Shown piece by piece: positions 10,354 through 27,463 of a stretch of DNA of 64,000 nucleotides (positions are counted from its first letter, which is position 1; every line of letters starts with the position of its first letter). The translations under genes were made by a program, and so were the position numbers. Under the pieces are notes generated by a model. That model was given only the letters and a program-made list of their open reading frames with translations. It had not been told where the DNA came from and ran no database searches. The stretch comes from Enterobacter sp. JBIWA008 (GTDB lineage: Bacteria; Pseudomonadota; Gammaproteobacteria; Enterobacterales; Enterobacteriaceae): the NCBI RefSeq assembly GCF_019968765.1, contig NZ_CP074149.1:2232001-2296000 (forward strand). Direction: 5' to 3'.

Positions 10354-10508
10354 GAATACCTCCGGGTTGAGCTTTGCCTGAATAGTCAGGCTAGCAAAGC
10401 GGTGCAACAGGCTGTCCAGGATATAGCTTAATTATTATTCCCTCAGGCGAATTTCAGGGTTAAGTAATTAAATAAAATATCCTTGCTCAAGACAGGGGCG
10501 TGAAGACT

Positions 10509-11132
10509 TTACATCATGCCGTTATTTCCGTGACGCAAAAACGCCGGGCGCTGGTTAAGACGTTCAAACCAGGCCTCAATCGCGGGCACGTCGGGCTTAT
10601 CAAACGGCGTCATCTTCCAGCGATTCACCGACAGCCCAAGCACGATATCCGCAAGGGTAAAAGCCTCACCCGCCGCAAAGGCCCCGGTGCGCTGCAGCTG
10701 GTTTTCCAGAATGGTGATGCAGTGATTCCACTCTTTTATTCCCGCCGCAATGCGCTCAGGGTCGTTAAAGTCCGGGTTTTTACGCCCCAGCGCCGGGAAG
10801 ACATAGCGCCAGGCGTTATTGAATTCGGTCGCCTGCCAGTCCATCCAGCGCTCGACGTTGGCGCAGGCCTGCGGTGCGGCAGGCAGCAGATCGTGACGCC
10901 CGGCCTTGCGCGCCAGATAACGGCAGATGGCGTTGGACTCCCACAGCACGAAATCGCCATCAATGAGCACCGGCACCATGGCGTTGGGGTTCAGGGCACG
11001 AAACGCATCCGTTTCAGTAGAGGCAAAACCGCTGCCGTAATCTTCCTGTTGATACTCGAGGCCCGCTTCTTCGCAGGTCCAGAGCACTTTACGCACGTTT
11101 ATGGAGGTGGTTTTGCCGAGGATGTTAATCAT
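10509..11132 (-). CDS. glutathione S-transferase family protein
   Basis: A 207-residue cytosolic protein with a thioredoxin-like N-terminal domain (residues 1-80, including NAMVPVLIDGDFVLWESNAICRYLA, the cis-Pro and ES glutathione-binding motif) and an all-helical C-terminal domain (FTLADIVLGLSVNRW). Predicted to conjugate or reduce electrophiles with glutathione; the substrate is unknown. It lies 72 nt downstream of the MFS gene on the same strand, so the two may be co-transcribed. Confidence 0.82.
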   Translation of the reverse strand: MINILGKTTSINVRKVLWTCEEAGLEYQQEDYGSGFASTETDAFRALNPNAMVPVLIDGDFVLWESNAICRYLARKAGRHDLLPAAPQACANVERWMDWQATEFNNAWRYVFPALGRKNPDFNDPERIAAGIKEWNHCITILENQLQRTGAFAAGEAFTLADIVLGLSVNRWKMTPFDKPDVPAIEAWFERLNQRPAFLRHGNNGMM

Positions 11133-11204
11133 GTCGCCGCTTCTCTTCAGAGTGATGAATCGTTTAAAAACAATACACCAGCGGTGAAGAAAAGCGTCAA
11201 CTAA

Positions 11205-12407
11205 TCATCCGGCGAGAGATTTGTGAAGACGCGAAAGCAGAAGCGTCAACACCGCCGCGCCCAGGAGCAATATTCCGCTTAATAAAAACGTGCTCTGCCA
11301 GCCGAGATGGTCGAATACCAAGCCACCGGCAGTTGAACCGAGCGCAATGGCGAGCTGGATCACGGCGACCATTAACCCGCCACCGGCTTCAGCATCTTCC
11401 GGCAGCGTTCGCGCAATCCATGTCCACCATCCCGCGGGTGCTGCCGTCGCCAGCATCCCCCAGAAGCCTAACAGCAGGGCAACGATCCACACGCTGTGAC
11501 CGGTCAGTATCAACGCGCCTGCAATGACGGCCATCAGCAGGGGTATGGCGATTAACGTCAGATAAAACGCGGCGTTCAGGGTCAGAGCAACGAGCAGTGT
11601 ACCAACAAAACCCGCGACGCCGATGGTGAGTAAAATCAGCGACAAGCCGGAGGGGGTGACCTGCGTGACGGCTTCGAGAAACGGTCGCACATAGGTAAAC
11701 AGGGCAAACTGTCCCATAAAGAACAGGCCGCAGGCCAGCAGACCAATGAAAACCACTGGCTGGCGGAATAGCCGAAAGACGGATGCGCGTGACGCCGTAT
11801 TTTTATTGCCGTTCATATCGGGCAGGCTAAAACGTTGCCAGAGGAACGCCACTATCGCCACGGGAACCAGGCACAGGAAGGCGCCGCGCCAGCCAATGGT
11901 GGCGCCAAGATAACTTCCGAGCGGGGCGGCGACTACCGTCGCCAGCGCGTTTCCCCCGTTGAAAATCGCCAGCGCGCGAGATACCTGATGCTGCGGAACC
12001 AGGCGAATGGCCGTTGCGGCAGACATGGACCAGAACCCGCCTATAGCGATACCGATCAGCGCGCGGCCAGTCATGTAAAACAGATAGTTTGGGGCGAAAG
12101 CGATAATCATCCCCGAGAGCGCCATCAGGAGCGTCATGCCCAGCAGAAGGTGTTTGCGGTTCATATTCCCGGCAAGCCGGGAAAGGAAGAGGCTGGTCAG
12201 AACCGCCAGCGCGCCGGAAATCGCGATCCCCTGGCCAGCGAGCCCCTCCGTAACGCCCAAATCTCTGGCAAGAGGGGTAAGCAGGCTGACGGGCATAAAT
12301 TCCGAGGCAATCAGGACGAATACGCACAGGGTCATGGCAAAAATACCGCCCCAGTGCGCGCGTTCCTCATTCTGTAAGGTGGTAGAGTTCAGGGTGGACA
12401 TAGTCAT
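11205..12407 (-). CDS. MFS efflux transporter (DHA1 type)
   Basis: A 400-residue 12-helix transporter. Residues 20-60 (FAMTLCVFVLIASEFMPVSLLTPLARDLG) and the TGRALIGIAIGGFWSMSAATAIRLVP stretch resemble the NepI/AraJ/YdhP branch of drug and metabolite exporters. The substrate is unknown. It sits between the GST and hydrolase genes, all on the minus strand, with a divergent LysR gene beyond: a likely small detoxification cluster. Confidence 0.8.
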   Translation of the reverse strand: MTMSTLNSTTLQNEERAHWGGIFAMTLCVFVLIASEFMPVSLLTPLARDLGVTEGLAGQGIAISGALAVLTSLFLSRLAGNMNRKHLLLGMTLLMALSGMIIAFAPNYLFYMTGRALIGIAIGGFWSMSAATAIRLVPQHQVSRALAIFNGGNALATVVAAPLGSYLGATIGWRGAFLCLVPVAIVAFLWQRFSLPDMNGNKNTASRASVFRLFRQPVVFIGLLACGLFFMGQFALFTYVRPFLEAVTQVTPSGLSLILLTIGVAGFVGTLLVALTLNAAFYLTLIAIPLLMAVIAGALILTGHSVWIVALLLGFWGMLATAAPAGWWTWIARTLPEDAEAGGGLMVAVIQLAIALGSTAGGLVFDHLGWQSTFLLSGILLLGAAVLTLLLSRLHKSLAG

Positions 12408-12450
12408 CTTTCACGAAGCGCCGCCCGCCAAACGCGGACGGCGGAGAGGT

Positions 12451-13578
12451 TTATTTCAGGCTGGTTTTGAAGAACTGTTCAAACTGGCCGAACGGGATCT
12501 TCCCGGCAGCATTGTCGTAGAGATCGACATGGTTTGCGCCCGGAACAATCACCAGTTCCTTTCGCTTGCTGCCGACCGCCTTAAACGCATCTTCTGCAAA
12601 GTAGCGGGAGTGCGCCTTTTCACCGGTTACGATAAGCGTCGGGATAGTAATTTCCCCGGCATAGCTCAGCAGCGGCATATTCATAAATGACAGCGGCATT
12701 GTCGCGGTCCATGCGCCGGTGGAGTTGACGGAACGTGCGTGGAAGCCGCGCGGCATGCGGTAGTAGTCATAGAACTCCTTCAGTACCGGGTTCGGGTCTG
12801 CTGGCAGCGCCTCTGGCAGAATACGTTCAGCCGCCGTCACCTTGCCGTTCTCATCGACATAAATGTCATGGCCGCCGTGCGCGAAGGTACCGTTCTCAGC
12901 ATCTTTCCAGCGCTGTTCGTTCAGATACTGCAGAACGGCGCGGCGGTCAGACGTTGAATAGCGATCTTTCCCGTCGCCCACGCCGTGGCCCATCGCCCGG
13001 CTCATGTCGTACATCACGCTGGTGGCGACCGCCTTCACGCGGGTGTCCATGGAGGCCGCATTCAGCGCCATACCGCCCCAGCCGCAGATGCCGAGAATAC
13101 CGATGCGGTTACGATCCACCTCTTTCTGTAACCCCAGGAAATCCACCGCCGCGCTAAAGTCTTCGGTGTTGATATCCGGAGACGCGACGTTGCGCGGCTG
13201 GCCGCCGCTTTCGCCCGTATAGGACGGATCGAACGCCAGGGTCACAAACCCATTTTCCGCCAGGGTCTGCGCGTACAGGCCGCTGGACTGTTCTTTGACC
13301 GCGCCAAACGGCCCACTGACCGCAATCGCCGCCAGCTTGCGGTCGCCGCGATTATTGGGAAGATACAGATCGCCTACCAGGGTGATCCCGTACCGGTTCT
13401 GGAAGGACACCTTACGGTGATCGACTTTATTACTTTCGGCGAAGGTTTTATCCCATGTGCTCACCATCGAAACCGGTGCGTTTGGGTTGGTGGTTTCTGC
13501 ATAACTCATTGTCGTCACTCCACTTAATGATGCACAAAGCAGCATCGCAACGGACATTTTTTGGGTGAATGTTTTCAT
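12451..13578 (-). CDS. exported alpha/beta hydrolase, dienelactone-hydrolase-like
   Basis: A 375-residue protein with a signal peptide (basic MKTFTQK, hydrophobic MLLCASLSGV, cleavage near SYA-ET), so a periplasmic enzyme. The hydrolase fold shows a nucleophile elbow GILGICGWGGMA, where Cys replaces Ser as in dienelactone hydrolases, an acid region IPTLIVTGEKAHSRY and a histidine in VPGANHVDLYD. The substrate is unknown. It is 44 nt upstream of the MFS gene on the same strand and divergent from the LysR gene at 13692, its likely regulator. Confidence 0.78.
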   Translation of the reverse strand: MKTFTQKMSVAMLLCASLSGVTTMSYAETTNPNAPVSMVSTWDKTFAESNKVDHRKVSFQNRYGITLVGDLYLPNNRGDRKLAAIAVSGPFGAVKEQSSGLYAQTLAENGFVTLAFDPSYTGESGGQPRNVASPDINTEDFSAAVDFLGLQKEVDRNRIGILGICGWGGMALNAASMDTRVKAVATSVMYDMSRAMGHGVGDGKDRYSTSDRRAVLQYLNEQRWKDAENGTFAHGGHDIYVDENGKVTAAERILPEALPADPNPVLKEFYDYYRMPRGFHARSVNSTGAWTATMPLSFMNMPLLSYAGEITIPTLIVTGEKAHSRYFAEDAFKAVGSKRKELVIVPGANHVDLYDNAAGKIPFGQFEQFFKTSLK

Positions 13579-13691
13579 GAAAATGGACCCTGGGTTGTTG
13601 TGTTGCGGTCATTATAGTTAGCAGAAATAGTGCTGATTAGAGGCCGAAAACTGCTAGGATTCATATCATATTGTTATAAATCGGGGGCGTG

Positions 13692-14576
13692 ATGGCGAAG
13701 CGGGAAAACTATAATGAGCTGTACCTGTTCATGCAGGTGGTACGGGAGGGGAGCTTCACGGCGGCCGCGCTTCGGCTTGGTCTGGCGCAATCCGGGATCA
13801 GCCGCTCGGTTCGCGAGCTGGAAGAGCGGTTGGGTGTTCAGCTTCTGGTCCGCACCACGCGTAAGCTGTCGCTAACCCACGCGGGCGAACAGCTTTACCA
13901 GACCGCCGAGTCCGCGTTCGATACGCTCGATACGGGCCTGGCGACGCTGGCACACTATCGTCAGACGCCGTCCGGCACGGTGCGCATTAATGCCAGCCAG
14001 CACGCGATCGACAAATGTCTGCTGCCAAAGCTCGCCATTTTTAAACAGCGTTACCCGGATATCCGACTGGAACTGATAAATGAAAGCCGCTTCGTCGACA
14101 TTATCGCCGAGCGTTTCGACGCGGGTGTCAGACTGGGGCCGGAAGTGGGGCAGGGAATGATTGCGGTGCGTATCACGCCTGATATGGAAATGGCCGCAGT
14201 GGCTGCCCCGGAACACTTCAGACGCTACGGTTTTCCCCAGACGCCTGCGGATTTAGTGGCGCACCCCTGCATTGCCTACCAGTTTGTCGACGGTAGTGAC
14301 TATCAGTGGGAGCTGGTGCAGGACGGGAAAAAAATCACTCATCGGCCAGAGGGACAATGGGCGTTGTCTGACAGCTATATGGAAGCCGAAGCCGCCCGGC
14401 AGGGGCTGGGGCTGGCCTATGTCCCGGTGGAGCTGGTGGCTGACGATCTGGAGCGCGGAACGCTTATCCGGGTGTTGCAGCGCTATAGCCTGCGCATGGA
14501 CGGGCTGTACCTCTATTATCCGCACCGTAACGTGTCGCCTGCGCTTAGAGCGGTGATAGATACGCTTAAAATTTAG
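13692..14576 (+). CDS. LysR-family regulator next to the hydrolase gene
   Basis: A 294-residue LysR protein. The N-terminal HTH reads YLFMQVVREGSFTAAALRLGLAQSGISRSVRELEERLG, followed by RTTRKLSLTHAGE. The ATG at 13692 follows a G-rich ribosome binding site; a GTG three bases earlier is also possible. Divergent transcription from the exported hydrolase (113-nt gap) points to control of the hydrolase-MFS-GST genes. Confidence 0.83.
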   Translation: MAKRENYNELYLFMQVVREGSFTAAALRLGLAQSGISRSVRELEERLGVQLLVRTTRKLSLTHAGEQLYQTAESAFDTLDTGLATLAHYRQTPSGTVRINASQHAIDKCLLPKLAIFKQRYPDIRLELINESRFVDIIAERFDAGVRLGPEVGQGMIAVRITPDMEMAAVAAPEHFRRYGFPQTPADLVAHPCIAYQFVDGSDYQWELVQDGKKITHRPEGQWALSDSYMEAEAARQGLGLAYVPVELVADDLERGTLIRVLQRYSLRMDGLYLYYPHRNVSPALRAVIDTLKI

Positions 14577-14908
14577 GGCAGCGTTGTTATTCTGGAAGGC
14601 GCCTCGCAAACCGCAAATTAACCGTGCGAAATTCGGGGTTATGTCTTTTCTTCAACCGATCGGGGTCGTAAAGTGCCTGCGTTGCGGAATATCCGCAATC
14701 GGGCGTAGGAACCCGCATCCACCATATAGTGACATTTCGAATGTCGCGGCAGCGCCGATCCCGCTACAATTGCGGTGGCGCTGGCGGAGCAGCCGTTAGG
14801 CTGGCCGTTTTTCTATATGGGCGGTATTCCTACCTCTGTCAGCGCTACCCCCCGAGCGTAGGAACTCATTGGCTGGTTAAATGAATTGCATATAGAAGGA
14901 TGCCTTGT
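14577..14908 (+). ncRNA. P4-phage-like immunity/leader element (candidate)
   Basis: No confident protein gene lies in these 332 nt, but there is dense structure. The 10-mer GCGTAGGAAC occurs at 14703-14712 and again at 14856-14865, and between them TTCCTAC (14827-14833) is complementary to 7 nt of both copies. This order resembles phage P4, where the CI RNA carries a segment complementary to targets on both sides. Short hairpins (TTGCGGA/TCCGCAA, GACATT/AATGTC) add to this. The frame 14672-14884, with an ATG at 14741 giving 47 residues, resembles the small Ash/Icd-like frames found in P4-type immunity regions. The resemblance is from memory. Confidence 0.4.
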
Positions 14909-15364
14909 ATGGCTACTATTCCAACCCTGAATTATCTCCCGTCTGACGAAAGCGTCATTCTGCAACTTATCTCCCGGCCGCTTCCGGCTGATGCCGATCT
15001 GTTCGTCGTCGCCGACAACTGCGCCGCACTGGTGAGCGTGCTGGTCGAAATCGAGGATGCGAAGATGTTTACTGCGCTGTGCGAGCGTCTGCTGCACGCC
15101 CTGCGTAAGCTAAGAGAACTCTGCGATGTCGATCTTCCGCCTGACCTGATCGCGCAATTGATCATGGGTGAGAAAATGAACTCCTGCGTACCGGACTGCT
15201 GGCAGGATACCCTGACTCAGGTGGACTATGTGGTGGCGCTGACGCAAGCGGTTATGGGTGGAACGCTGCCCGCTCAGGTAGCGAAAGACCTGACGGGCCT
15301 GCTGCACGATATGGTGTGGCTGCTGGCTGAGTTTGTGAAGGAGCCGCGCATTACGGCGCATTAA
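14909..15364 (+). CDS. conserved small protein of P4-like immunity regions, function unknown
   Basis: A 151-residue acidic, helical, soluble protein without signal or membrane segment. It begins MATIPTLNYLPSDESVILQL and resembles small proteins that commonly follow Ash/Icd-like leaders in enterobacterial P4-type elements. The ATG at 14909 is chosen because AGAAGGA lies 8 nt upstream; the ATG at 14900 abuts that site. It directly follows the repeat/antisense element at 14577-14908 and ends at a terminator-like hairpin, so it looks like a self-contained unit left from a mobile element. Confidence 0.7.
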   Translation: MATIPTLNYLPSDESVILQLISRPLPADADLFVVADNCAALVSVLVEIEDAKMFTALCERLLHALRKLRELCDVDLPPDLIAQLIMGEKMNSCVPDCWQDTLTQVDYVVALTQAVMGGTLPAQVAKDLTGLLHDMVWLLAEFVKEPRITAH

Positions 15365-15378
15365 GGGCGCTGGCGTGG

Positions 15379-15398
15379 AGGGGCGGTAGCGCCCCTTT
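15379..15398 (+). terminator. intrinsic terminator after the 151-residue protein
   Basis: A 7-bp stem (AGGGGCG / CGCCCCT) with a GTAG loop followed by a short T-run, 15 nt after the stop codon. Confidence 0.6.
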
Positions 15399-15410
15399 GA
15401 AACCGTGTAA

Positions 15411-15821
15411 TTAACGTGATGAGTTCCCGGGATCCAGAAGCGACGTACCGTAGGAGTTGTCGATGGTACAAAGCCAGCGACCGTCGCTTTCCTGCCGAAA
15501 AACATAGGTTGCGCGGCGCGACATTTCCGTTATCCCACCCTGACCATCAGGAAAACGCAGAACGGTTTCCATAATAACAAGGGCATTGCCGCCACCTTCG
15601 ATTACCTGCATCTCCCCTTGTTCGACGAGCAGCTGATCCTGAAAATAATCAGAGATAGCAATAAACGCGCTGCGGATGTTTTCTTTGCCTTTAACCGTCA
15701 TGCCCGGCTTGACCACCAGAGCCGCATCTTCCGCGTAATACTCCATCAGGGCGTCATAGTTTTTGGTGGTGATGGCGTGGTCGCAGGATTCAATGATCTG
15801 GCGTAGCGGATGTGGGGTCAT
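15411..15821 (-). CDS. NTF2-like (SnoaL/DUF4440) protein
   Basis: A 136-residue protein of the nuclear transport factor 2-like cone fold: an N-terminal helix (PLRQIIESCDHAITTKNYDALMEYYAEDA) followed by beta strands ending in the GRWLCTIDNSYG motif of the YybH/SgcJ group. The catalytic or binding role is unknown. The ATG at 15821 is chosen for its GAGGA site 7 nt upstream; the open frame extends 54 codons further without such a signal. It lies at the GC-rich edge of the AT-rich defence module. Confidence 0.78.
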   Translation of the reverse strand: MTPHPLRQIIESCDHAITTKNYDALMEYYAEDAALVVKPGMTVKGKENIRSAFIAISDYFQDQLLVEQGEMQVIEGGGNALVIMETVLRFPDGQGGITEMSRRATYVFRQESDGRWLCTIDNSYGTSLLDPGNSSR

Positions 15822-16064
15822 GCGCGATTCCTCGTTAAGGGGTAAACACGTATTAACGTTACAGCCTGGCGTGTTTGTATAGCTACCAGGTTTTGTGGCG
15901 GGGGGCGTAGGGGGGAAGTTGAGGGGTAACGTTAGGTTTGCTAAGAGCGAAAAGCAGAACTTCGCGGTTAATCTCCCGGCCAAATAGTTGCATTACTCAC
16001 ATTACGGCGTGTTAATCAATGGAGAGCAGATCAATAAGAACAGAAATAAAAATTCCAAGCATTA

Positions 16065-16922
16065 CTACAAGTCTGACATTAGAGCCAAACACATAATCCG
16101 TTCCCAGTGATTCACAAAAGGCGAATTATTGATTATTGTTTGGAATATAAGGTCTTTAGCAGCATTTTTATCTACGGAGATTGGTAGTACTGAGTTATAT
16201 AGAGCTAAAAGCACAACTAACCTCGCACCAGCTTCTTTCGAGTATCTTAAAGATAAATCAAAATCGTTAAAATGTTTTTCCACTCTTTGTTTATGTGCAT
16301 TATCCCAATCAGCAGGTGGAGAAACAAAATATTCAATAACTCCAGGCTCATCATTTTTGCCAACCAAGTATCTAGCCGATATCCACTGTTCATCATAATA
16401 ACGGCTGTCGTCTAAATAGGGATGTATTATCTGTTCTGCTTCATTTCTTGCAAAAGCTTCCCCTTTACCATCCATATTACAATCTCGACAAGCTGGCACA
16501 AGATTAACAGGCAATATAGAAAACTGAGGATAGTGAGCTTTAGGCAAGTAATGATCTAAATTTCGAGGGCGCCCAATCCCACCACAGAATGGGCATTTTT
16601 CATTAGCAGCAGTCATCAGGGCATCATAAATAGCTCGAGCAGGCTTTTTCTTCCCAACAACATAATTTCCATAAAGCTTAACAAAGTCAGATTTCTTTAA
16701 CCGACCTACAACAATAGGGTCTTCCTCATCTTTGTTTTGCAGTGGTTGTATTGTATAAAGCTCACCAGTTAATGCCGATGCGTTGTATGAAGCTGCCAAT
16801 GTTTGCAAATCAGTTATTGCTTCATTCACTTTCAGCAACAAGCCCGGATTACCAGTTATGCCTTCGCGGCAGCTAGTCAGCATATCGGCATATGTATAAG
16901 CAGGTTGTTTAAGTTTCAACAT
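16065..16922 (-). CDS. HNH endonuclease, PtuB-like effector of a two-gene defence module
   Basis: A 285-residue protein with a central HNH nuclease of the zinc-ribbon type: CPFC at 110-113, LDHYLPK with the catalytic DH at 123-124, NLVPAC at 140-145 and CRDCN closing the second zinc pair. It fits the HNH partner (PtuB) of Septu and retron-associated PtuAB systems, which degrade DNA when triggered. The ATG at 16922 shares one base with the stop of the upstream ATPase gene (TGATG), so the two are translationally coupled. Base composition is clearly AT-rich against the flanking genes, a sign of transfer. The Septu assignment is inferred from the gene pair. Confidence 0.8.
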   Translation of the reverse strand: MLKLKQPAYTYADMLTSCREGITGNPGLLLKVNEAITDLQTLAASYNASALTGELYTIQPLQNKDEEDPIVVGRLKKSDFVKLYGNYVVGKKKPARAIYDALMTAANEKCPFCGGIGRPRNLDHYLPKAHYPQFSILPVNLVPACRDCNMDGKGEAFARNEAEQIIHPYLDDSRYYDEQWISARYLVGKNDEPGVIEYFVSPPADWDNAHKQRVEKHFNDFDLSLRYSKEAGARLVVLLALYNSVLPISVDKNAAKDLIFQTIINNSPFVNHWERIMCLALMSDL

Positions 16923-18439
16923 CACTTAATACTCCGATCTCTATGTGTGACAAGCGCTTTCAATAGAGCTCGGGCTTCAACACCAAGCTGGTTACGATAC
17001 TCATCGACTATATCCTCATATGTTCCACCTGACTTAACTGATTGGACTAATAAATCGTGAAAACCGGATTTAACTACTTCAAGACCAAATACCTCTCTTG
17101 TTAAGATTCCTACATTCTCACCAAATGTTTCAATGTCTGGCCTGCGAGATTCGGTAGACAATCTTGAACGATTGATTTTCCAAACACATCGTTTAGGAAC
17201 CTCTTGAAGTACCACAGGTGAGTGAGTTGCAATAATAGAAACACCATTTCTATCAAGTAGCAAATCAGACAGCGTACGAATAAAAGCAGACAGCAACGGT
17301 GGATGAAGATGGCTCTCTGGTTCATCAATTAGCACTAACGTTTTTTCTTCCACCGTTGCGACTAAACGTGTAAGTGTTAATAACACAACCGCATGACCGG
17401 AGCTCATTCTTTTTATACGTTTCCGTGCATTACTAACGAGCATCTCACCATTATATCCGGCTAGATTTTTCAGCTCCATGTTTGCAAAGTTTTCATCAGA
17501 CTCCAAAGTATCAATAGCCTGCAGCCATCTTTCACGCTTAGGAATCTGGCTAAAGCATAGCGTCAAAGCTTGTAGAAAGTCTTCATGAATATCATTTAGT
17601 CCTTTCAACGACTCTCCTTTTTTTTTCAAACCTATATAGAAGTAGCAAGTTCCCTTTGATGGATCAGGCTGTTCACTTGGTGGCTCGAATGGATCGAATG
17701 CGCTAAATGACACAGAGACTAAACTACTAAAGTAATCATTATCAATCGGATCATTACTCCACCCCTCCAGATCATAAAATTTTGCATTCGACGTACCTTT
17801 ACTGGTAACAGCTTCAATCATTCCGTTTAGAATTGTCGTTTTCCCCACACCATTACGACCTATGATCGCGTGAATATTGGTGCTTGGTTTTTCTCCTACT
17901 TTCACCTTAAATGATAATTCGATATCGGAAATTTTGTCTTGTGTAGGGCGAATGAACTTAAACTCAAAATTAGTCAGTGGATTCTTTCCCTCAAGCACTC
18001 GCGCAAACTGCCCTTTAATAACAGACAAACTAACATACCGAAGCAAAGACGTTTTAAAGACCTCCTCATCCTTAACAAGATCTATAAGTTCTGGCGCATA
18101 AGCTATATCTTTGAGCGCCTCAAGTAATGAAACTTTGACGGATTCTGTTAAATTCGAAATTTTCTGATAATAGTCGACATCCTGACCAACGGAAAAATAT
18201 CCTTCTGGGAGAATTCTAAACCTGCGCCCTAACGTGGAGTAAGTTGATTTTTCAGTAGTTTGTCCTTGAAAGCCAATCTTGACATTCCCAATATCATGCC
18301 GTTCACCTTTCTGATCAAACAGATACATGTAAAACATTGTAATGAACGAAAAGTCATTCCAACGATCCACATGCAGGTAAGCCGTACTAATGCCTACGGC
18401 AGGAATACGTTGCTCTCGGGGTACAATAATGATTTCCAT
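16922..18439 (-). CDS. ABC/SMC-type ATPase, PtuA-like sensor of a two-gene defence module
   Basis: A 505-residue ATPase. Walker A is GRNGVGKT at 194-201, a signature-like MSSGHA is at 345-350, Walker B with its glutamate is VLIDEPESHLHP at 369-380, and the switch ATHSP is at 404-408. This is the layout of single-chain SMC/ABC-like defence ATPases (PtuA, OLD, Gabija family fold). Residues 1-185 precede the P-loop and include a strand-rich part I cannot assign; PtuA proteins usually have the P-loop much closer to the N-terminus. It is first in an operon with the HNH gene. It likely senses infection and licenses the nuclease. Confidence 0.8.
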   Translation of the reverse strand: MEIIIVPREQRIPAVGISTAYLHVDRWNDFSFITMFYMYLFDQKGERHDIGNVKIGFQGQTTEKSTYSTLGRRFRILPEGYFSVGQDVDYYQKISNLTESVKVSLLEALKDIAYAPELIDLVKDEEVFKTSLLRYVSLSVIKGQFARVLEGKNPLTNFEFKFIRPTQDKISDIELSFKVKVGEKPSTNIHAIIGRNGVGKTTILNGMIEAVTSKGTSNAKFYDLEGWSNDPIDNDYFSSLVSVSFSAFDPFEPPSEQPDPSKGTCYFYIGLKKKGESLKGLNDIHEDFLQALTLCFSQIPKRERWLQAIDTLESDENFANMELKNLAGYNGEMLVSNARKRIKRMSSGHAVVLLTLTRLVATVEEKTLVLIDEPESHLHPPLLSAFIRTLSDLLLDRNGVSIIATHSPVVLQEVPKRCVWKINRSRLSTESRRPDIETFGENVGILTREVFGLEVVKSGFHDLLVQSVKSGGTYEDIVDEYRNQLGVEARALLKALVTHRDRSIK

Positions 18440-18702
18440 ATAATTTCCGAAAACCTTTTTTGTTTAGACTCACCTAATTATATCAAAAACAATAACAGAT
18501 GTATAAATATATTCTGCGAGAAACTTAAATATACAAGAAAACTCAAAAATTCTTTTTGCGGTTACGCTACTAATTAAAGGAAGTATCGTCAGGAGTTCTA
18601 ATTATTAGTTGAAATAATTTACATATGATACGCAGTTGGACTTTTGACATAATAAGATTCTAGCAAAGGCAGCTTCTGGCACAAAGCGGACCGCACCAGT
18701 AA
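18440..18702. other. AT-rich promoter region of the ATPase-HNH module
   Basis: These 263 nt are very AT-rich and hold no open frame of note. The upstream promoter of the minus-strand ATPase gene must lie here. At about 18650-18700 the composition shifts to GC-rich, marking the module's boundary. No direct repeats or integrase remnants were recognised. Confidence 0.5.
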
Positions 18703-19014
18703 CAAAATTACCCGGCAAGCGGCAACGTCAGGGAAACAGCGGAGGCAGCACAACGCGCGGTAAGAAGCTGTCTCACGGGTGCAGAGTCGGCTGCTCTGAT
18801 CCAGTACTCAACAGGAGAGCGTCCTGTTATTCAGGATGGGTATTCCGTTCCTGGTTTTGCTGATGAGAGCAGGACGGTATACGTCGCCTCTATGCACACA
18901 GCCGTGACGTGCGCAGCGACGATTAGCAGACGGCTCTCAGAGGAGTTATGCGACGGCCAGAGAGACGAAATCCCGTGTTACAGGCCATCCCGCTTTAGCG
19001 TGTTACAGGGCTGA
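18703..19014 (+). pseudogene. start-less 103-codon open frame, possible gene fragment
   Basis: After a TAA at 18700-18702 the frame stays open to TGA at 19012-19014. The translation has protein-like composition (for example SCLTGAESAALIQYSTGERP and later CDGQRDEIPCYRPSRF), but the first ATG is only at 18892. It could be the 3' part of a gene whose beginning was lost when the AT-rich module arrived, or a small phage-type frame starting at a rare codon. The product is not recognised. Its last 12 nt overlap the convergent gene at 19003. Confidence 0.3.
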
Positions 19015-19218
19015 GACGAGATCTCTGATCTTTTCAGCCTTTTCAAAATGGTCCAGCTTCATCTCCATAATCCACCAGTGCGCCACTTCCATAAGCAGTT
19101 CAGGATCGTCATTTTTATTAGCAAAAAAAGCATAAAACGAAAGCCCAACATCGCTTCCCTTAGAGGCAATTTTTGAATCACAGATCCTGATGATTTTTTC
19201 CTTCATTCCTTGCCGCAC
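19003..19218 (-). CDS. small conserved protein, possibly DUF6500 family
   Basis: A 71-residue soluble protein (IIRICDSKIASKGSDVGLSF, then FANKNDDPELLMEVAHWW). I believe it matches the uncharacterised DUF6500 family, but this is from memory. The GTG start at 19218 has AAAGGA 6 nt upstream; an ATG at 19206 lacks spacing for a ribosome binding site. It lies between the defence module and the yebG paralogue. Confidence 0.65.
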   Translation of the reverse strand: MRQGMKEKIIRICDSKIASKGSDVGLSFYAFFANKNDDPELLMEVAHWWIMEMKLDHFEKAEKIRDLVSAL

Positions 19219-19250
19219 GTCATTTCCTTTAGTCTTTTAATGTTCGGGCT

Positions 19251-19283
19251 AAAAAAAGCCGCAAGCAGATGGCTGCTTACGGC
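19251..19283 (-). terminator. intrinsic terminator of the yebG-like gene
   Basis: An 11-bp perfect stem (GCCGTAAGCAG / CTGCTTGCGGC) with a 4-nt loop is followed on the minus strand by seven T. It lies 30 nt after the stop. Confidence 0.85.
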
Positions 19284-19312
19284 TCCAGGAGCGGTGATGG
19301 TTTTTCTGACAA

Positions 19313-19630
19313 TCAGGCCGCTTTCACAGCCCTGATTTTTTTCGTGTCAACTGCGTCGGATTCAGTTTTATCCGCTGCAGCTGGAGCGTTGAGATCGGGA
19401 AGCTTGCTGGTACGCAGAATATGCTGCACGGTCTCTTTCTGCTCGGCGAGATACAGGCCAAGATTTTCAGCCTGCGTTTCATCCATCTGCATTCCGCTTT
19501 GCAACAGCCAGTCGGTGAACGCGTCTGCCATATCGAGCAGCTTGTCGTGAGCGTCAGCCTCTTTCTTACTGGCAAATGTCATTTTCTCTTCACCTTTTCT
19601 TACGACAACAAATTTTGTTTCAACAGCCAT
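19313..19630 (-). CDS. yebG: YebG-like SOS-inducible protein
   Basis: A 105-residue protein matching the YebG family: MAVETKFVVVRKGEEKM at the N-terminus, then FASKKEADAHDKLLDMAD and LAEQKETVQHIL. YebG is a small LexA-regulated protein of unclear function in the DNA-damage response. The ATG at 19630 is chosen to give the family N-terminus; the GTG at 19639 is upstream. A near-perfect LexA box stands just before it. The C-terminal tail differs from E. coli YebG and the locus is not the usual one, so it may be a second, mobile copy. Confidence 0.85.
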   Translation of the reverse strand: MAVETKFVVVRKGEEKMTFASKKEADAHDKLLDMADAFTDWLLQSGMQMDETQAENLGLYLAEQKETVQHILRTSKLPDLNAPAAADKTESDAVDTKKIRAVKAA

Positions 19631-19643
19631 TATGCGCACCTCA

Positions 19644-19663
19644 TACTGTAATTATATACAGTA
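19644..19663 (-). promoter_or_regulatory. LexA (SOS) box
   Basis: The minus-strand sequence TACTGTATATAATTACAGTA fits the consensus TACTGTATATATATACAGTA at 18 of 20 positions, with both CTGT/ACAG cores intact. It lies 14 nt before the yebG-like start, so LexA should repress this gene tightly. Confidence 0.9.
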
Positions 19664-19706
19664 TAACAGTTCCGGATTAATGTTGCAGCTAAAAATTGCT
19701 CACATT

Positions 19707-20687
19707 TTAACGAGCAGGGGGCTCATTCGAAAATCTCGCAGTAATCGCATCACGTTCATAGCCCTGGGGCTGCGTCAGTATCTGGTATAAATCAGGACGG
19801 CGACCGTGGATCCAGCGGCGTCCTGTGCTCATAGCAAGCAGGCTTAAATCGAGTTCAGCGCTCACCATCGCATCTTCGGCCGCCCAGGTTTCATTCACGA
19901 TCCTGCCATAGGGGTCGAGGATCATGGCATTGCCCGTGCGCACTTCGTCATCATCGGCACCGACGCCGTTGCTGAAGAGAAGAAATAAGCCGTTGTCATG
20001 CGCGCGGGCAGGCAGCCAGCGCATGAGCCATTCCCGACCGCCTGGCCCTTTGAAAGCCGCGGTAATTTCTTCCTTACGCGTTTCCCGCTCCTCCCAGAGC
20101 GCCAGCGGAATCGGCTTCATCCCGTGAGGGCTGCGGGAATCGGTACCGCCTGTTTGATGCGGCGCGAGAAGAATATCGGCACCCAGCAGCGCCGTCGCGC
20201 GCACATTTTCGACCAGATTATTGTCCCAGCAAATCAGGATACCGACCTTCACGCCCCACGGCGTATCAAAAATCGTAAAGCTGTCCCCGCTGCTGATGGC
20301 CGAATGTTCGAAAGCATGGAGTTTACGATGCGTATGCATTGAGCCGTCCGGCATACAGGCAACATAGGCATTGTAGAGGCGGCCATCGTCGGCGCGTTCA
20401 ATAAGACCGGCACCAATAAGCATTTGGTGTTTTATCGCCAGGGAACGAATGAGCGTCAGGGAAGGGCTGTCCGCAATCGGCTCTGCCAGCGCAGACACCT
20501 CCGCGGCGGTGAGCTTGGGGACATGCCAGTAGCCGGTGATACACATTTCAGGGAAAGTGAGAATGTTCACCTGCTCAAGCGCCGCCCGTTCAATAAATTT
20601 CTCCATTATCAGTAGATTGTATTTTTTGTTACTGGCCTGATGCTGAAACTGTACGGTTGCCGCCTTTAAGGATGTCAGTTCGTTCAT
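19707..20687 (-). CDS. nitrilase-superfamily amidohydrolase
   Basis: A 326-residue carbon-nitrogen hydrolase. The catalytic triad is visible: Glu in ILTFPEMCITGYW, Lys in HRKLHAFEH and Cys in VGILICWDNN. Members hydrolyse amides, carbamoyls or nitriles; the substrate here is not known. It is divergent from the LysR gene at 20788 across 100 nt, suggesting that regulator controls it. Confidence 0.85.
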   Translation of the reverse strand: MNELTSLKAATVQFQHQASNKKYNLLIMEKFIERAALEQVNILTFPEMCITGYWHVPKLTAAEVSALAEPIADSPSLTLIRSLAIKHQMLIGAGLIERADDGRLYNAYVACMPDGSMHTHRKLHAFEHSAISSGDSFTIFDTPWGVKVGILICWDNNLVENVRATALLGADILLAPHQTGGTDSRSPHGMKPIPLALWEERETRKEEITAAFKGPGGREWLMRWLPARAHDNGLFLLFSNGVGADDDEVRTGNAMILDPYGRIVNETWAAEDAMVSAELDLSLLAMSTGRRWIHGRRPDLYQILTQPQGYERDAITARFSNEPPAR

Positions 20688-20787
20688 GTTGCGTCTCCGG
20701 TTGTCATCGAGACTGAATTACATAACGATTGCCGATAACTGTATAATCAAATCATTTCCGAATTTGATAACCATCTGGAATGCAAAA

Positions 20788-21702
20788 ATGAACACCCGGT
20801 TGCTAAAGGCCTTTTTGATGCTGGCGGAAAAAGGAAATTATGCCGATGCGGCGCGGGCGCTGTTTATCTCGCAGCCGGCATTGACCAAACAGATTAATCT
20901 CCTCGAATCCCTGGTGAAGATGTCTCTTTTTTCACGAGGTCGTCACGGCGCAATACTGACCGCCAGCGGCAGGCGTTTGCTGCCAGAGGCTGAGAAGGTG
21001 GTCAGGCAGACCCGGCAATTTATGCAGCATGCTGATCGGGTATCGAAAGGAGTTGAAGGGCATATCGCCGTCGGGTTCGGACTTTCAAGCTTTTATCTGG
21101 CGCCACGCTGTATCGCTGACTTTCGTCGGGACTACCCGGAAGTAGAAATGTCATTGACCGATCTGCCTTCCTTCCAGCAGTACGAGCGATTGCAAAACGA
21201 TGAGCTGCAGGTCGGTTTTGTCAGGGTTCCTCCCCCCGTGGCGCTTGAATACCTGCCGTTATTTACCGATCGGCTGGTCCTGGTTGCACCCGCTGAGTCG
21301 CCGACGATGTCTGTCGGAGAGTGGCTCACGAAACGCCCTCTGTTGCGGCTGTATGATGAGCGGGGACGGGGATTAAACGCGCAGATTGACCGCTTCCTGC
21401 ATGACAACGGCCTTTTCATCACATCGACTCAGCTGACTGACGATATCCAAACTATCGTCGCGATGGTGGTTGCGGGTATCGGTGTGGCCATTCTGCCAAC
21501 CAGCGTGACGCATATCGCGCCGCCGGAGCTGGCGATTATTCCGCTAACGGGGGAGTCAATCAGCTGGAAGGTGGGCATCGCCTGGGACGCAGGCAGGGAG
21601 GATGTCATCCGTGACAATTTCATTGCTAGCGTAGCTGCTGCGTTTCCGGGCCACCCATGCTCCGCCGCCATGCCCCAGGCGCCTGACCGTACTGACGCTT
21701 AA
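20788..21702 (+). CDS. LysR-family regulator next to the nitrilase gene
   Basis: A 304-residue LysR protein; the HTH reads MLAEKGNYADAARALFISQPALTKQINLLE. The ATG at 20788 gives the family N-terminus (MNTRLLKAFL); the open frame extends 34 codons further upstream without support. It is divergent from the nitrilase gene. Its last 77 nt overlap the 3' end of rarA on the other strand, so the C-terminal tail (about 25 residues) is encoded antisense to rarA. Confidence 0.85.
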   Translation: MNTRLLKAFLMLAEKGNYADAARALFISQPALTKQINLLESLVKMSLFSRGRHGAILTASGRRLLPEAEKVVRQTRQFMQHADRVSKGVEGHIAVGFGLSSFYLAPRCIADFRRDYPEVEMSLTDLPSFQQYERLQNDELQVGFVRVPPPVALEYLPLFTDRLVLVAPAESPTMSVGEWLTKRPLLRLYDERGRGLNAQIDRFLHDNGLFITSTQLTDDIQTIVAMVVAGIGVAILPTSVTHIAPPELAIIPLTGESISWKVGIAWDAGREDVIRDNFIASVAAAFPGHPCSAAMPQAPDRTDA

Positions 21703-21976
21703 AGCTGCGGTTGAAGGACTGCTGGGAGTCAAAGCCCAGCGCGATCGCCACGTTAAGAATCGGTTCATCGCTGCGGGTTAAGCGCTCAACCGATTTTTGC
21801 AGCTTTTGCGCGCGAATATACCCGGCGAGGGGATAGCCCGTATGCTCTTTGAACAGGCGCTGGAGGTGCCATTTTGAGTAGCCGGATCGCCTGGCGACGG
21901 ACTCAATATCCAGACGGCTATCCAGGTTGTTGTCGATCCAGTCGAGTAAATCATGCATAAATGCGCCAGTGTTCAT
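21626..21976 (-). CDS. rarA: RarA, AraC-family activator of OqxAB efflux
   Basis: A 116-residue single-domain AraC/XylS activator of the MarA/SoxS/RamA group. The first HTH reads DIESVARRSGYSKWHLQRLFKEHTG and the second ILNVAIALGFDSQQSFNRSFKRQYGQAPGAWRR. Its location, divergent from oqxA, identifies RarA, which activates oqxAB and contributes to multidrug resistance in Klebsiella and Enterobacter. The ATG at 21976 has GGGAG 7 nt upstream. The gene's 3' end overlaps the convergent LysR gene by 77 nt. Confidence 0.85.
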   Translation of the reverse strand: MNTGAFMHDLLDWIDNNLDSRLDIESVARRSGYSKWHLQRLFKEHTGYPLAGYIRAQKLQKSVERLTRSDEPILNVAIALGFDSQQSFNRSFKRQYGQAPGAWRRSMGGPETQQLR

Positions 21977-22016
21977 CTGATTACTCCCACGCTGCCTGTA
22001 TAAAAGTATCTTTATC

Positions 22017-22076
22017 TGTTGCATTTAAAGGTGGCGCGTTTTTGTATTAATTGCAAGTTTTATTGTTGCATTTAAA
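22017..22076. repeat. direct repeat upstream of rarA
   Basis: The 13-mer TGTTGCATTTAAA occurs exactly at 22017-22029 and 22064-22076, 47 bp apart. Both copies lie within the rarA side of the rarA-oqxA intergenic region, so they may be operator sites for rarA. Confidence 0.5.
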
Positions 22077-22112
22077 TCCCTGGCCGAAACGGGTCTTTTC
22101 ACATCCGCTCAA

Positions 22113-22189
22113 ATAGCACATAAAGTGCAACAATTATTCTTGCACTTAGTTAAGCGCCTTCCTACAATCGCCGCGAATAGTGTATTCGC
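22113..22189 (+). promoter_or_regulatory. oqxAB promoter with marbox and two palindromes
   Basis: A sigma-70 promoter is visible: TTGCAC (22140-22145), 17-nt spacer, TACAAT (22163-22168). A marbox-like sequence (22113-22131) fits 12 of the 14 defined positions of AYnGCACnnWnnRYYAAAY and lies just upstream of the -35. An inverted repeat AAGTGCAA-N9-TTGCACTT (22123-22147) overlaps both the marbox and the -35. A second palindrome GCGAATA-N3-TATTCGC (22173-22189) lies at the start of transcription. RarA, MarA or SoxS should bind the marbox; OqxR may bind one of the palindromes. Confidence 0.65.
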
Positions 22190-22313
22190 AACTGTTACAG
22201 TTTTGTGGCGATGAACGACACAAATGGCCTTAAGACAGCCACCGGACAAAGGAAGTGGCGCGGTGCCTCCTGCTGCGTCTTGCCCGGCGGCGACAATTAC
22301 CGGAATAAAAATA

Positions 22314-23489
22314 ATGAGCCTGCAAAAAACCTGGGGTAACTCTCATATGAGCGCGCTGGGGGCAATGTTGCTCTCCGTGCTGCTCGTCGGATGCGATAAT
22401 AGCGTCGCGCAAAATGCAGCGCCGCCTGCGCCCGCCGTCAGCGCTGCTGACGTGGTGGTGAAATCCATTAGCCAGTGGGATAGCTTTAACGGCCGGATTG
22501 AAGCGGTGGAGAGCGTTCAGCTCCGTCCGCGCGTGTCCGGCTACATTGATAAGGTGAATTACACCGACGGCCAGGAAGTGAAGAAGGGCGAGGTGCTGTT
22601 CACGATTGATGACCGAACCTATCGCGCGGCGCTGGAACAGGCGCAGGCTAACCTGGCGAGAGCCAAAACGCAGGCCAGCCTGGCGCAAAGCGAGGCTAAC
22701 CGTACCGATAAGCTGGTCAATACCAACGTTGTCTCCCGCGAAGAGTGGGAGCAGCGTCGTTCGGCAGCCACTCAGGCGCAGGCCGATATTCGCGCCGCGC
22801 AGGCGGCAGTGGACGCCGCGCAGCTCAACCTGGACTTCACCAAAGTCACCGCGCCTATCGACGGCCGCGCCAGCCGGGCGATGATCACCAGCGGGAACCT
22901 GGTGACTGCGGGCGACACCGCCAGCGTCCTCACCACGCTGGTCTCGCAGAAAACGGTTTACGTTTACTTTGACGTGGACGAGTCAACCTATCTTCACTAT
23001 CAAAACCTGGCCCGCAGCGGGCAGGGGGCGTCCAGCAACCACACGGCGCTTCCGGTTGAGATTGGCCTGACGGGCGAGGAGGGCTATCCCCATCAGGGCA
23101 AAGTGGACTTCCTTGATAACCAGCTGACGCCGAGTACCGGCACCATCCGCATGCGCGCGCTGCTGGATAACGCGCAGCGCCAGTTCACGCCGGGACTTTT
23201 TGCCCGCGTACGCCTGCCGGGCAGCGCGGAGTTCAAAGCCACGCTTATCGACGACAAAGCGGTTCTGACCGATCAGGATCGTAAGTACGTTTATATCGTC
23301 GATAAAGAGGGGAAAGCGCAGCGCCGGGACATCACGCCGGGCCGTCTGGCAGACGGTTTACGCATCGTGCGGCAGGGGCTGAACCCTGGCGATAAAGTCA
23401 TCGTCGAGGGTTTACAGAAAGTGTTTATGCCGGGTATGCCGGTTAACGCGAAAACCGTTGCCATGACCGCCACCAGCGCCCTCAACTGA
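22314..23489 (+). CDS. oqxA: OqxA, periplasmic adaptor of RND efflux pump
   Basis: A 391-residue membrane-fusion protein, the known length of OqxA. The N-terminus is a lipoprotein signal with lipobox LLVGC, followed by a lipoyl/beta-barrel core (YIDKVNYTDGQEVKKGEVLF) and a coiled-coil hairpin rich in Ala and Gln. It links OqxB to an outer-membrane channel (TolC) for export of quinolones, quinoxalines, nitrofurantoin and chloramphenicol. The ATG at 22314 matches known OqxA; longer starts do not. It lies 24 nt before oqxB. Confidence 0.95.
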   Translation: MSLQKTWGNSHMSALGAMLLSVLLVGCDNSVAQNAAPPAPAVSAADVVVKSISQWDSFNGRIEAVESVQLRPRVSGYIDKVNYTDGQEVKKGEVLFTIDDRTYRAALEQAQANLARAKTQASLAQSEANRTDKLVNTNVVSREEWEQRRSAATQAQADIRAAQAAVDAAQLNLDFTKVTAPIDGRASRAMITSGNLVTAGDTASVLTTLVSQKTVYVYFDVDESTYLHYQNLARSGQGASSNHTALPVEIGLTGEEGYPHQGKVDFLDNQLTPSTGTIRMRALLDNAQRQFTPGLFARVRLPGSAEFKATLIDDKAVLTDQDRKYVYIVDKEGKAQRRDITPGRLADGLRIVRQGLNPGDKVIVEGLQKVFMPGMPVNAKTVAMTATSALN

Positions 23490-23513
23490 TCCCTTGACCT
23501 GAGAATCCACTCC

Positions 23514-26500
23514 ATGGACTTTTCCCGCTTTTTCATCGACAGGCCGATTTTTGCCGCGGTGCTGTCGATTCTGATTTTTATCACAGGGTTAATCGCCATC
23601 CCGCTGCTGCCGGTGAGCGAATATCCTGACGTCGTGCCGCCAAGCGTGCAGGTGCGCGCGGAGTACCCGGGCGCCAACCCGAAAGTGATTGCCGAGACGG
23701 TGGCGACGCCGCTGGAAGAGGCGATCAACGGCGTTGAGAACATGATGTACATGAAGTCCGTCGCGGGTTCCGATGGCGTGCTGGTAACTACCGTCACCTT
23801 CCGTCCGGGAACCGATCCGGATCAGGCGCAGGTTCAGGTGCAAAACCGCGTTGCGCAGGCCGAAGCGCGTCTGCCGGAAGACGTGCGGCGTTTGGGCATC
23901 ACTACCCAGAAACAGTCCCCGACGCTGACGCTGGTGGTGCATCTGTTTTCGCCGAACGGTAAGTACGACTCCCTGTATATGCGTAACTACGCCACGCTGA
24001 AGGTGAAGGACGAGCTGGCGCGCCTGCCCGGCGTCGGCCAGATCCAGATTTTCGGCTCGGGTGAATATGCGATGCGCGTCTGGCTGGATCCCAACAAGGT
24101 GGCGGCCCGCGGGCTAACCGCTTCGGACGTGGTGACGGCGATGCAGGAGCAGAACGTGCAGGTGTCCGCCGGGCAGCTTGGCGCCGAGCCGCTGCCGAAA
24201 GAGAGCGATTTCCTGATCTCCATTAACGCCCAGGGGCGTCTGCATACCGAAGAAGAGTTCGGCAATATTGTCCTGAAAACGACGCAGGACGGTACGGTCG
24301 TCCGCCTGCGCGACGTGGCGCGTATCGAAATGGGGTCCGGCAGCTATGCGCTGCGTTCCCAGCTGAACAATAAAGACGCGGTCGGGATTGGTATCTTCCA
24401 GTCGCCGGGGGCGAACGCCATCGATCTGTCTAACGCGGTGCGCGCGAAAATGGACGAACTGTCCACGCGCTTCCCGGCAGATATGAAGTGGGCGGCACCT
24501 TACGATCCGACCGTTTTCGTGCGCGATTCGATCCGTGCGGTCGTGCAAACGCTGCTGGAAGCGGTGGTGCTTGTGGTGCTGGTGGTGATCCTGTTCCTGC
24601 AAACCTGGCGCGCGTCGATCATTCCGCTGATCGCGGTGCCGGTTTCGGTGGTGGGTACCTTCAGCATTCTCTACCTGCTCGGCTTCTCGCTGAATACCCT
24701 GAGTTTGTTCGGGCTGGTGCTGGCCATCGGTATCGTGGTGGACGACGCCATCGTGGTGGTGGAAAACGTCGAGCGAAACATAGAAGAGGGGCTGGCGCCG
24801 CTTGCGGCGGCGCATCAGGCGATGCGAGAAGTGTCCGGGCCGATTATTGCGATTGCGCTGGTGCTGTGCGCGGTGTTTGTCCCGATGGCGTTCCTCTCGG
24901 GCGTTACCGGTCAGTTCTACAAGCAGTTTGCGGTGACGATCGCGATTTCTACGGTCATCTCCGCCATTAACTCGCTGACGCTCTCTCCGGCACTGGCGGC
25001 ACTGCTGTTAAAACCGCACGGCGCGCCGAAAGATTTCCCGACACGGCTTATCGATCGTCTGTTCGGCTGGATTTTCCGTCCATTTAACCGCTTTTTCCAC
25101 CGCAGCTCTAACGGCTATCAGGGGCTGGTGGGCAAAACGCTCGGCCGACGCGGCGCGGTGTTTGTGGTGTATCTGCTGCTGCTCTGTGCCGCCGGCGTCA
25201 TGTTTAAAGCGGTGCCCGGCGGGTTTATTCCGACGCAGGACAAGCTGTACCTGATTGGCGGCGTGAAAATGCCGGAAGGTTCGTCGCTGGCGCGCACTGA
25301 CGCGGTGATCCGCAAAATGAGCGAAATCGGGATGAATACCGAAGGCGTGGACTACGCGGTCGCGTTCCCGGGGCTGAACGCGCTGCAGTTCACCAACACG
25401 CCGAATACCGGAACGGTCTTCTTCGGCCTGAAGCCGTTCGACCAGCGTAAACATACTGCGGCGGAAATTAACGCGGAGATCAACGCGAAAATCGCGCAAA
25501 TTCAGGAAGGCTTTGGCTTCTCCATCCTGCCACCGCCGATTTTAGGGCTGGGTCAGGGGTCGGGCTATTCTCTGTACATCCAGGATCGCGGCGGTCTGGG
25601 CTATGGCGCGCTGCAAAACGCGGTGAACACCATGTCCGGCGCGATTATGCAGACGCCGGGGATGCATTTCCCGATCTCAACCTACCAGGCTAACGTTCCG
25701 CAGCTGGACGTGCAGGTTGACCGTGACAAGGCGAAAGCGCAGGGCGTGTCGCTGACCGATCTTTTCGGTACGCTGCAAACCTATCTGGGCTCGTCGTACG
25801 TGAATGACTTCAACCAGTTCGGGCGTACCTGGCGCGTGATGGCGCAGGCCGACGGGCAGTTCCGCGACAGCGTGGAAGATATTGCGAATCTGCGCACCCG
25901 TAATAGCCAGGGTGAAATGGTGCCGATTGGCAGTATGGTGAAAATCACGACCACCTACGGGCCGGATCCGGTGATCCGCTACAATGGCTACCCGGCGGCA
26001 GACCTGATTGGCGATGCCGACCCGCGCGTGCTCTCATCTGCGCAGGCGATGACGCAGCTGGACGCGATGTCTAAGCAGATCCTGCCAAACGGGATGAACA
26101 TTGAATGGACGGACCTGAGCTTCCAGCAGGCGACGCAGGGCAATACGGCGCTGATCGTCTTCCCGGTCGCGGTTCTGCTGGCGTTCCTGGTGCTGGCGGC
26201 GCTGTATGAAAGCTGGACGCTGCCGCTGGCGGTGATCCTCATCGTGCCGATGACCATGCTCTCCGCGCTGTTTGGCGTCTGGCTGACCGGTGGCGATAAC
26301 AACGTGTTCGTGCAGGTGGGGCTGGTGGTACTGATGGGGCTGGCGTGTAAAAACGCGATTCTTATCGTGGAGTTTGCCCGCGAGCTGGAAATTCAGGGCA
26401 AAGGCATTATGGAGGCCGCGCTGGAGGCGTGCCGCCTGCGTTTACGCCCGATTGTGATGACCTCCATCGCCTTTATTGCCGGGACCATTCCGCTGATCCT

Positions 26501-27212: not shown

Positions 27213-27463
27213 TTTTGTATCCTGGGTTGCGGTGAATCTTGTTCTTTTTGGCACCGCAGAGGTGAATAAGCAATAAACAACAATATAACAAATACGGTAA
27301 TTATTTTGAAGCAATCTGCGGCATTTGCGATCAAACCCCCTGTTCTGGTTTAGCTAAACGTGCGGTCCGGGAAGTCAACCGTCTCCACGACTTCTGGTTA
27401 AGTGCTCAACTCAGCGGGCGTTTCTCTGCTCACGGTGAAGCGGGTGATAGCCCAATATCGGAT

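Follow-up and report, generated by a model that had tools for sequence, protein, structure and literature searches.

The 64,000-nucleotide stretch of Enterobacter sp. JBIWA008 analyzed here (NZ_CP074149.1, positions 2,232,001 to 2,296,000; hereafter the window) carries two overlapping minus-strand genes, one for an ATP-binding cassette (ABC) ATPase and one for an HNH nuclease. We consider with good confidence that these two genes together make up a mobile anti-phage module that resembles the PtuAB proteins of Septu but comes from another family, that of phage lambda Ea59 and Ea31, catalogued in PADLOC as PDC-M01. Membership of this family is assigned from the profile matches and full-length identities given below. 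A preliminary description of the region, made from the sequence alone, had named Septu and the retrons and had missed the lambda pair, which is the closest named relative.

The ATPase gene (Ea59/PDC-M01A family, 505 residues) occupies positions 16922..18439 and the nuclease gene (Ea31/PDC-M01B family) positions 16065..16925, both on the minus strand and both with open frames, as had been described. The ATPase begins with a conserved N-terminal part (residues 1 to ~180) that lies ahead of Walker A (GRNGVGKT, residues 194-201, where the preliminary description had put it). The ABC signature (SSGH, 346-349), Walker B (LVLIDEPE, 368-375, also recognized earlier) and the H-loop (IATHSP, 403-408) follow. 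The nuclease has 286 residues if it starts at the GTG at 16925, which gives a 4-nt overlap with the ATPase gene, or 285 if it starts at the ATG at 16922, which gives the TGATG coupling noted previously and is the start that RefSeq uses for an E. coli copy. Its residues C111, C114, D124, H125, N141, C146, C149 and N150 do not vary in any of the 65 aligned rows, one of which is the window's own; the zinc cysteines (111, 114, 146 and 149) and the DH motif are thus as intact as had been claimed.

Against PADLOC, the nuclease matched PDC-M01B model PDLC04256 with 385 bits, and the best 25 of its 57 matching models were all PDC-M01B, making this the best catalogued family for the protein. For the ATPase the PDC-M01A model PDLC04235 (716 bits, residues 1-502) came second; the top score was 800 bits to the PtuA1 model PDLC00282, the next PtuA model reaching only 94 bits. 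The lambda proteins match the same two PDC-M01 models (Ea59, 667 bits; Ea31, 375 bits), and PDLC00282 takes Ea59 as well, with 611 bits. Since PDLC00282 scores the window ATPase above PDC-M01A, the PADLOC boundary between PtuA and PDC-M01 is blurred. PDC-M01 is moreover a candidate name only, and the literature found with it consists, judged by title, of genome surveys.

The lambda and window pairs share their best PHROG families, gene order and gene overlap. Full-length identity is 53-56% between the ATPase and Ea59 and 38-39% between the nuclease and Ea31. About 190 residues precede Walker A in the three members compared (it starts at residue 194 in the window protein, 195 in Ea59 and 193 in the protein of locus L006). 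The two pairs differ in that lambda's lies in the b region, beside attP in an intact phage, whereas the window's sits in a chromosomal hotspot, and they fall on different branches of a tree of 63 ATPases. In that tree Ea59 lies inside the bacterial family, grouped with proteins of Gilliamella, Psychrosphaera and Marinomonas (100/100), and the window ATPase groups with Tatumella (100/100) and then with Vibrio, Photobacterium and Parashewanella. A protein search found relatives of the nuclease in 19 of 50,697 phage records; 17 of the 19 (lambda, HK629, HK630 and other lambda-like phages) gave an identical 39.4% full-length match.

Is the pair then simply a divergent Septu? The 800-bit PtuA1 match speaks for this, and PDC-M01 and Septu calls are reported to have coincided in a Bacillus survey, as far as its account of them goes (PMC11811056). 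The yardsticks were the Septu pairs L011 and L015, each encoded in another genome of the same genus (PtuA, 689 and 379 bits; PtuB, 345 and 261 bits). The nuclease core aligned with one yardstick PtuB at E 4.8e-9 over 65 columns, and with the other at E 0.001 and a probability of 20%. No PtuB profile stood among the best 25 of the 57 models matching the nuclease, any PtuB match scoring at most 47 bits. The ATPase family profile aligned to both yardstick PtuA proteins only over the C-terminal block from the ABC signature to the H-loop and slightly beyond. Walker A lies at residues 33 and 40 in the yardsticks versus 194 in the window protein, which thus has ~155-160 extra residues before it. Because no PtuB is among the best nuclease models, Walker A is so far displaced and the ATPase alignment is limited to the C-terminal motifs, the pair is not Septu proper by these sequence features, and we regard the divergent-Septu reading as unlikely.

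Structure places Septu nearer. In Foldseek searches with AlphaFold models (predicted local distance difference test scores 88 for the ATPase and 95 for the nuclease), PtuA chains of Septu or retron I-A took the first 44 places among the PDB matches of the ATPase (best E 2.3e-11), and retron PtuB took the first four for the nuclease (E 0.004-0.01, probability 1.00). Against a viral structure library, the 50 matches listed were mostly generic ABC and other ATPases. The pair shares with Septu the pairing of ABC ATPase and HNH protein, a near fold and a related HNH core, and differs from it in the extra N-terminal part of the ATPase and in a nuclease of another family. We therefore rejected canonical Septu as a membership and kept it as a mechanism: the window pair is a PtuAB relative with, probably, a similar mode of action. 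The resemblance to Septu proposed in the preliminary description accordingly survives at the level of the nearest solved structures but not at that of PtuB profiles or the position of Walker A. The search against defence-system hidden Markov models that it had suggested was itself divided, the ATPase going to one PtuA model and the nuclease to PDC-M01B, with no PtuB among its best 25 models.

The retron I-A systems Ec78 and Ec83 come close by the same measures, their PtuA being the best PDB sequence matches of the ATPase (Ec78 PtuA first among solved structures) and their proteins the best structure matches of both. This could mean that the pair is the effector component of a retron, its reverse transcriptase (RT) having been lost or lying elsewhere. 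There is no RT in the window, as had been observed before, and the genome's three RT matches all lie outside it. RT genes occur in 22 of 38 homologue genomes, the nearest ~10.5 kb from a pair and the rest further off or on other contigs; none lies within 10 kb of a pair on the contigs examined in the 38, although some pairs are near contig ends, with an RT possible beyond the break. The NCBIfam scores are also far below cut-off (retron PtuA, 55 bits versus 500; TIGR02646 HNH, 14.6 bits versus 52). An Rfam gathering scan of positions 10000-25000 matched only a C4 RNA at 14768, though Rfam does not cover every RNA family. Retron identity was rejected on the empty RT searches near the pair and on the NCBIfam scores, and a derelict retron effector is the least credible of the explanations we considered.

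Two further systems, PD-T4-4 and WonAB, were set aside as identities because their nucleases are given as PD-(D/E)xK and not HNH. WonAB, from the WASA-1 prophage of Vibrio cholerae, is similar in being described as a prophage-borne ABC ATPase and nuclease that abort infection; the difference lies in WonB, a predicted PD-(D/E)xK nuclease, where the window pair has an HNH protein (PMC12137116).

Searching 84,980 species genomes gave 307 relatives of the nuclease, from which 80 loci were kept; eight of these proved to be lambda DNA within other organisms' assemblies and were removed before the count, leaving 72. An ATPase frame lies upstream of the nuclease frame on the same strand in 70 of the 72, and in 68 the two frames overlap or are at most 75 nt apart. 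In loci L096 and L099, gaps of 380 and 607 nt separate the end of the best ATPase frame from the nuclease frame. The two unpaired loci are L134, which begins at a contig end, and L158, where the DNA examined held no ATPase. Because 70 of 72 non-lambda loci keep it, the pairing is not due to chance.

The family is patchily distributed. Tree members come from Pseudomonadota, Cyanobacteriota, Bacteroidota and Thermodesulfobacteriota (the last two represented by one metagenome-assembled genome each), and there are copies on plasmids, including Streptomyces plasmids. Within the genus 10 of 61 genomes match PDC-M01B at 1e-10, and only two of 274 genomes sampled from the class, one of them this genome, have a match at 1e-20. 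Among 5426 complete E. coli genomes, 90 carry at least 80% of the cassette defined below at >90% identity, and 68 carry at least 80% of the lambda pair. The eight assemblies removed (L123-L130; Streptomyces, Oceanobacillus and Neobacillus among them) have DNA identical to lambda at the Ea59-Ea31 locus. Three 'plasmids' of ~48.5 kb (NZ_CP104294, NZ_CP068597 and NZ_CP082339, from Stenotrophomonas, Paenibacillus and Salmonella) likewise have lambda's length and the 39.4% nuclease match. Lambda DNA filed under other organisms probably represents sequencing controls.

The pair is markedly AT-rich. Its guanine-plus-cytosine (GC) content is 0.396 versus 56% for the whole window; only four of 617 sliding segments of the pair's length are as low or lower, all four overlapping the pair, and the lowest of the 569 that do not overlap it has 0.463. 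The preliminary description was right in calling the pair more AT-rich than its flanks but had drawn the unit too small: it runs from about 15945 to 18687, taking in ~250 bp ahead of the ATPase gene. These limits (15945..18687, ~2.75 kb, no strand assigned) are those of a cassette that recurs in E. coli islands at 97-98% identity. They are 15945-18691 in a Tatumella copy and 15924-18621 in a viral contig, in window coordinates. The upstream region (18440..18687, minus strand) is retained in close copies and contains a promoter-like site at 18505-18477 (TATACA-17-TATAAT, with TG ahead of the second hexamer), recognized by consensus match alone; such sites are no more frequent in this region than expected by chance.

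The near-identical copies lie in unrelated surroundings. In four E. coli records the segment 15945-~18687 (shorter in one) is 97.6-97.8% identical and sits in an island at a tRNA-Thr gene, presumably thrW. The Tatumella copy is 97.5% identical and the IMG/VR viral contig copy 97.4%. Two more E. coli records, one labelled a plasmid but having chromosomal genes, place the pair at icd, where a prophage matches at 93.8% over 2.5 kb. In the icd prophage (L025:10636-14574) the pair is flanked by the 3' end of icd on one side and a frameshifted integrase gene on the other, a position close to the attachment site like that of the lambda pair; a search around the pair for a second copy of the icd 3' end found none. 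In the viral contig (L167:4487-8020) a CI-like repressor gene, encoded on the other strand, adjoins the pair, and the region reads by eye as a lambdoid early region.

At the window's own site, 12 regions from relatives were compared, nine having the left flank (eight of these both flanks) and three the right flank only; none of the 12 has a match to the pair. The left boundary is a SnoaL-like gene (15411..15821, minus strand; likely start 15821 from the reading frame) that is kept in relatives without the pair. The right edge of the replaced segment is the 3' remnant of a gene for a flavin adenine dinucleotide (FAD)-dependent oxidoreductase (18704..18997, minus strand), which in three relatives (L069, L071 and L073) is an open frame of 348-375 residues at this site; the Pfam DAO domain was checked for the L069 frame only. 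A GC-rich stretch at 18700-19000, considered as a structured RNA, proved to match the 3' end of this oxidoreductase gene. Because none of the relatives compared has the pair here and the oxidoreductase gene is truncated in the window, the site is variable and the pair a newcomer. The acquisition that the preliminary description had proposed is thus borne out by the site comparison, by the 97-98% identical copies elsewhere and by the low GC content, and the presence/absence comparison across the genus that it had suggested shows that the pair is not fixed at this site. The cassette moves between genera, and between viral DNA and chromosomal sites, with hardly any change.

Such movement would also fit a selfish element in which a homing-type endonuclease, the HNH protein, spreads with the help of the ATPase. 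HNH domains are common among homing enzymes, and a discrete ~2.75-kb cassette has entered unrelated places, phage and prophage DNA included. However, the window site, the tRNA-Thr island, the icd prophage and the viral contig have no visible common target gene, the ABC ATPase partner is obligate, and the nearest structures are those of defence effectors. Both cassette ends (15940-15965 and 18668-18691) carry imperfect motifs of the TCCGCT...AGCGGA type, which visual inspection also showed at the site in relatives lacking the pair and in the copies from E. coli and Tatumella. The 24-base palindrome form has one match in the window with at most three mismatches, at 18668-18691 (chance mean 0.00). 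We dropped the palindromic motif as a mobility signal because it is not enriched in the genome (nine places, versus nine for a control pattern); it is possible that these ends provide short homology for cassette exchange. Overall we think it quite improbable that the pair is a homing element.

The neighbourhoods of the cassette are rich in defence genes, which favours the anti-phage module. Of four relatives whose inserts at the site were annotated, one has a 1974-residue PDC-S37/Hhe-like helicase-nuclease and another an AbiV HEPN protein with a T5orf172 protein. In E. coli island L023 the cassette adjoins Lamassu LmuA and LmuB (657 and 1016 bits), and further along are a prokaryotic Argonaute-associated nuclease and a PD-T7-1 match. 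In three other E. coli island records the cassette is accompanied by a DUF4297 gene and by another gene equal in size, under varying product names. Scanning 143 open reading frames (ORFs) flanking 42 homologous loci (of 65 that qualified) with PADLOC at 1e-10 gave matches to 322 models, many of them overlapping. The best 25, led by mad3 with five matches, included REase_I (4), Specificity_I (3), MTase_I (3), Old (4), AriA (4) and GajA (3). The 51 control ORFs from the window matched only two models, mad3 and mad8, and none of REase_I, Specificity_I, MTase_I or GajA. These neighbours also bear on the idea that the pair is a toxin-antitoxin-like stability module of phages and plasmids with no effect on phage. 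Plasmid and viral records do carry the pair, and the WonAB nuclease is described as toxic when overproduced (PMC12137116), but several copies of the pair adjoin restriction, Gabija or Lamassu genes, and we give a pure stability module very little credence.

Several observations weigh against an anti-phage module of PtuAB type. At the site itself, the insert of one relative (L071:2684-6144) consists of three ORFs (195, 389 and 385 residues) with no PADLOC or Pfam match, which are possibly defence genes of new kinds, and the fourth insert holds a LysR-like gene along with further ORFs, inspected by eye, with no defence match. The neighbour control came from the window's single chromosome and not from the genomes of the homologues, and, PDC-M01 being itself a candidate class, its defence neighbourhood may depend on how the class was defined. 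In overall architecture the ATPase differs from PtuA, as its low template modelling scores (0.27-0.43 by query) show. The lambda pair is dispensable, and in the account of PMC10695390 its knock-down caused no plaque defect, which neither supports nor refutes a role in defence. Finally, no paper testing the function of an Ea59-Ea31 or PDC-M01 pair was found by title or abstract, in a search that left most subscription journals and bioRxiv outside. With these points counted, the view that a defence module was acquired here stands as regards acquisition and defence-rich neighbourhoods, and the anti-phage effect is what analogy with PtuAB would predict.

On that analogy, the ABC ATPase would dimerize through its ATP sites, and the dimer would bind one or two HNH subunits and keep the nuclease inactive. 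Infection by phage might be sensed by the N-terminal part of the ATPase, or might shift its nucleotide state; ATP binding or hydrolysis, or its loss, would then release the HNH active site. Cleavage of phage DNA by the freed nuclease, or of an essential host RNA (a tRNA, for instance), would put an end to the infection. Characterized relatives, so far as they are described in PMC11555353 and PMC13096335, offer precedents for both kinds of substrate: tRNA-Tyr is depleted by retron-Eco7 PtuAB and cut by Septu EcB88, which requires both active sites, and Septu of E. coli ATCC 25922 is reported to cut nicked DNA.

The same reasoning can be extended to lambda itself. We lean, by a small margin, toward the view that ea59-ea31 is an unrecognized exclusion system, additional to rexAB and sieB, in which an HNH nuclease gated by Ea59 would let lysogens shut out some competing phages. 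The window pair would then be a recently mobilized cousin with the same N-terminal trigger domain of ~190 residues, absent from the yardstick Septu proteins. That N-terminal part is in any case a clear architectural mark separating the PDC-M01 candidate from Septu. If this prediction is correct, the lambda genes are functional representatives of a defence family that occurs in Pseudomonadota, Cyanobacteriota, a Bacteroidota metagenome-assembled genome and Streptomyces plasmids. The orphan lambda pair also gains a mobile family whose companions include restriction, Gabija and Lamassu genes, which makes its function directly testable in lambda lysogens. These are genes of one of the best-studied phages, for which we found no functional explanation; in the portions of PMC10695390, PMC3224144 and PMC12318184 that concern them they appear only as dispensable, within a region proposed for deletion, or as one interaction partner. 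The CRISPR interference value for ea59 in the first of these (efficiency of plating 13, standard deviation 17), considered as a hint of self-inhibition, was dropped as noise.

Some other features of the window are of note. At 14768-15364 a C4 antisense RNA (Rfam RF01695, 65 bits) lies directly upstream of a 154-residue ORF with no Pfam match above cut-off. The unit is dispersed and multicopy: of 61 genomes in the genus, 54 match part of the query 14700-15990, several at 3-6 places, and many of the matches cover the C4-ORF part alone. On the other side of the hotspot a DUF6500 gene (19003-19218) lies beside a YebG-like gene (PF07130, 112 bits) in the stretch 19313-19664, which also holds a palindrome resembling a LexA box, seen by eye, at 19643-19664; the two genes are possibly SOS-controlled. 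A second dip in GC content, to 0.43-0.45, occurs at 27000-28500.

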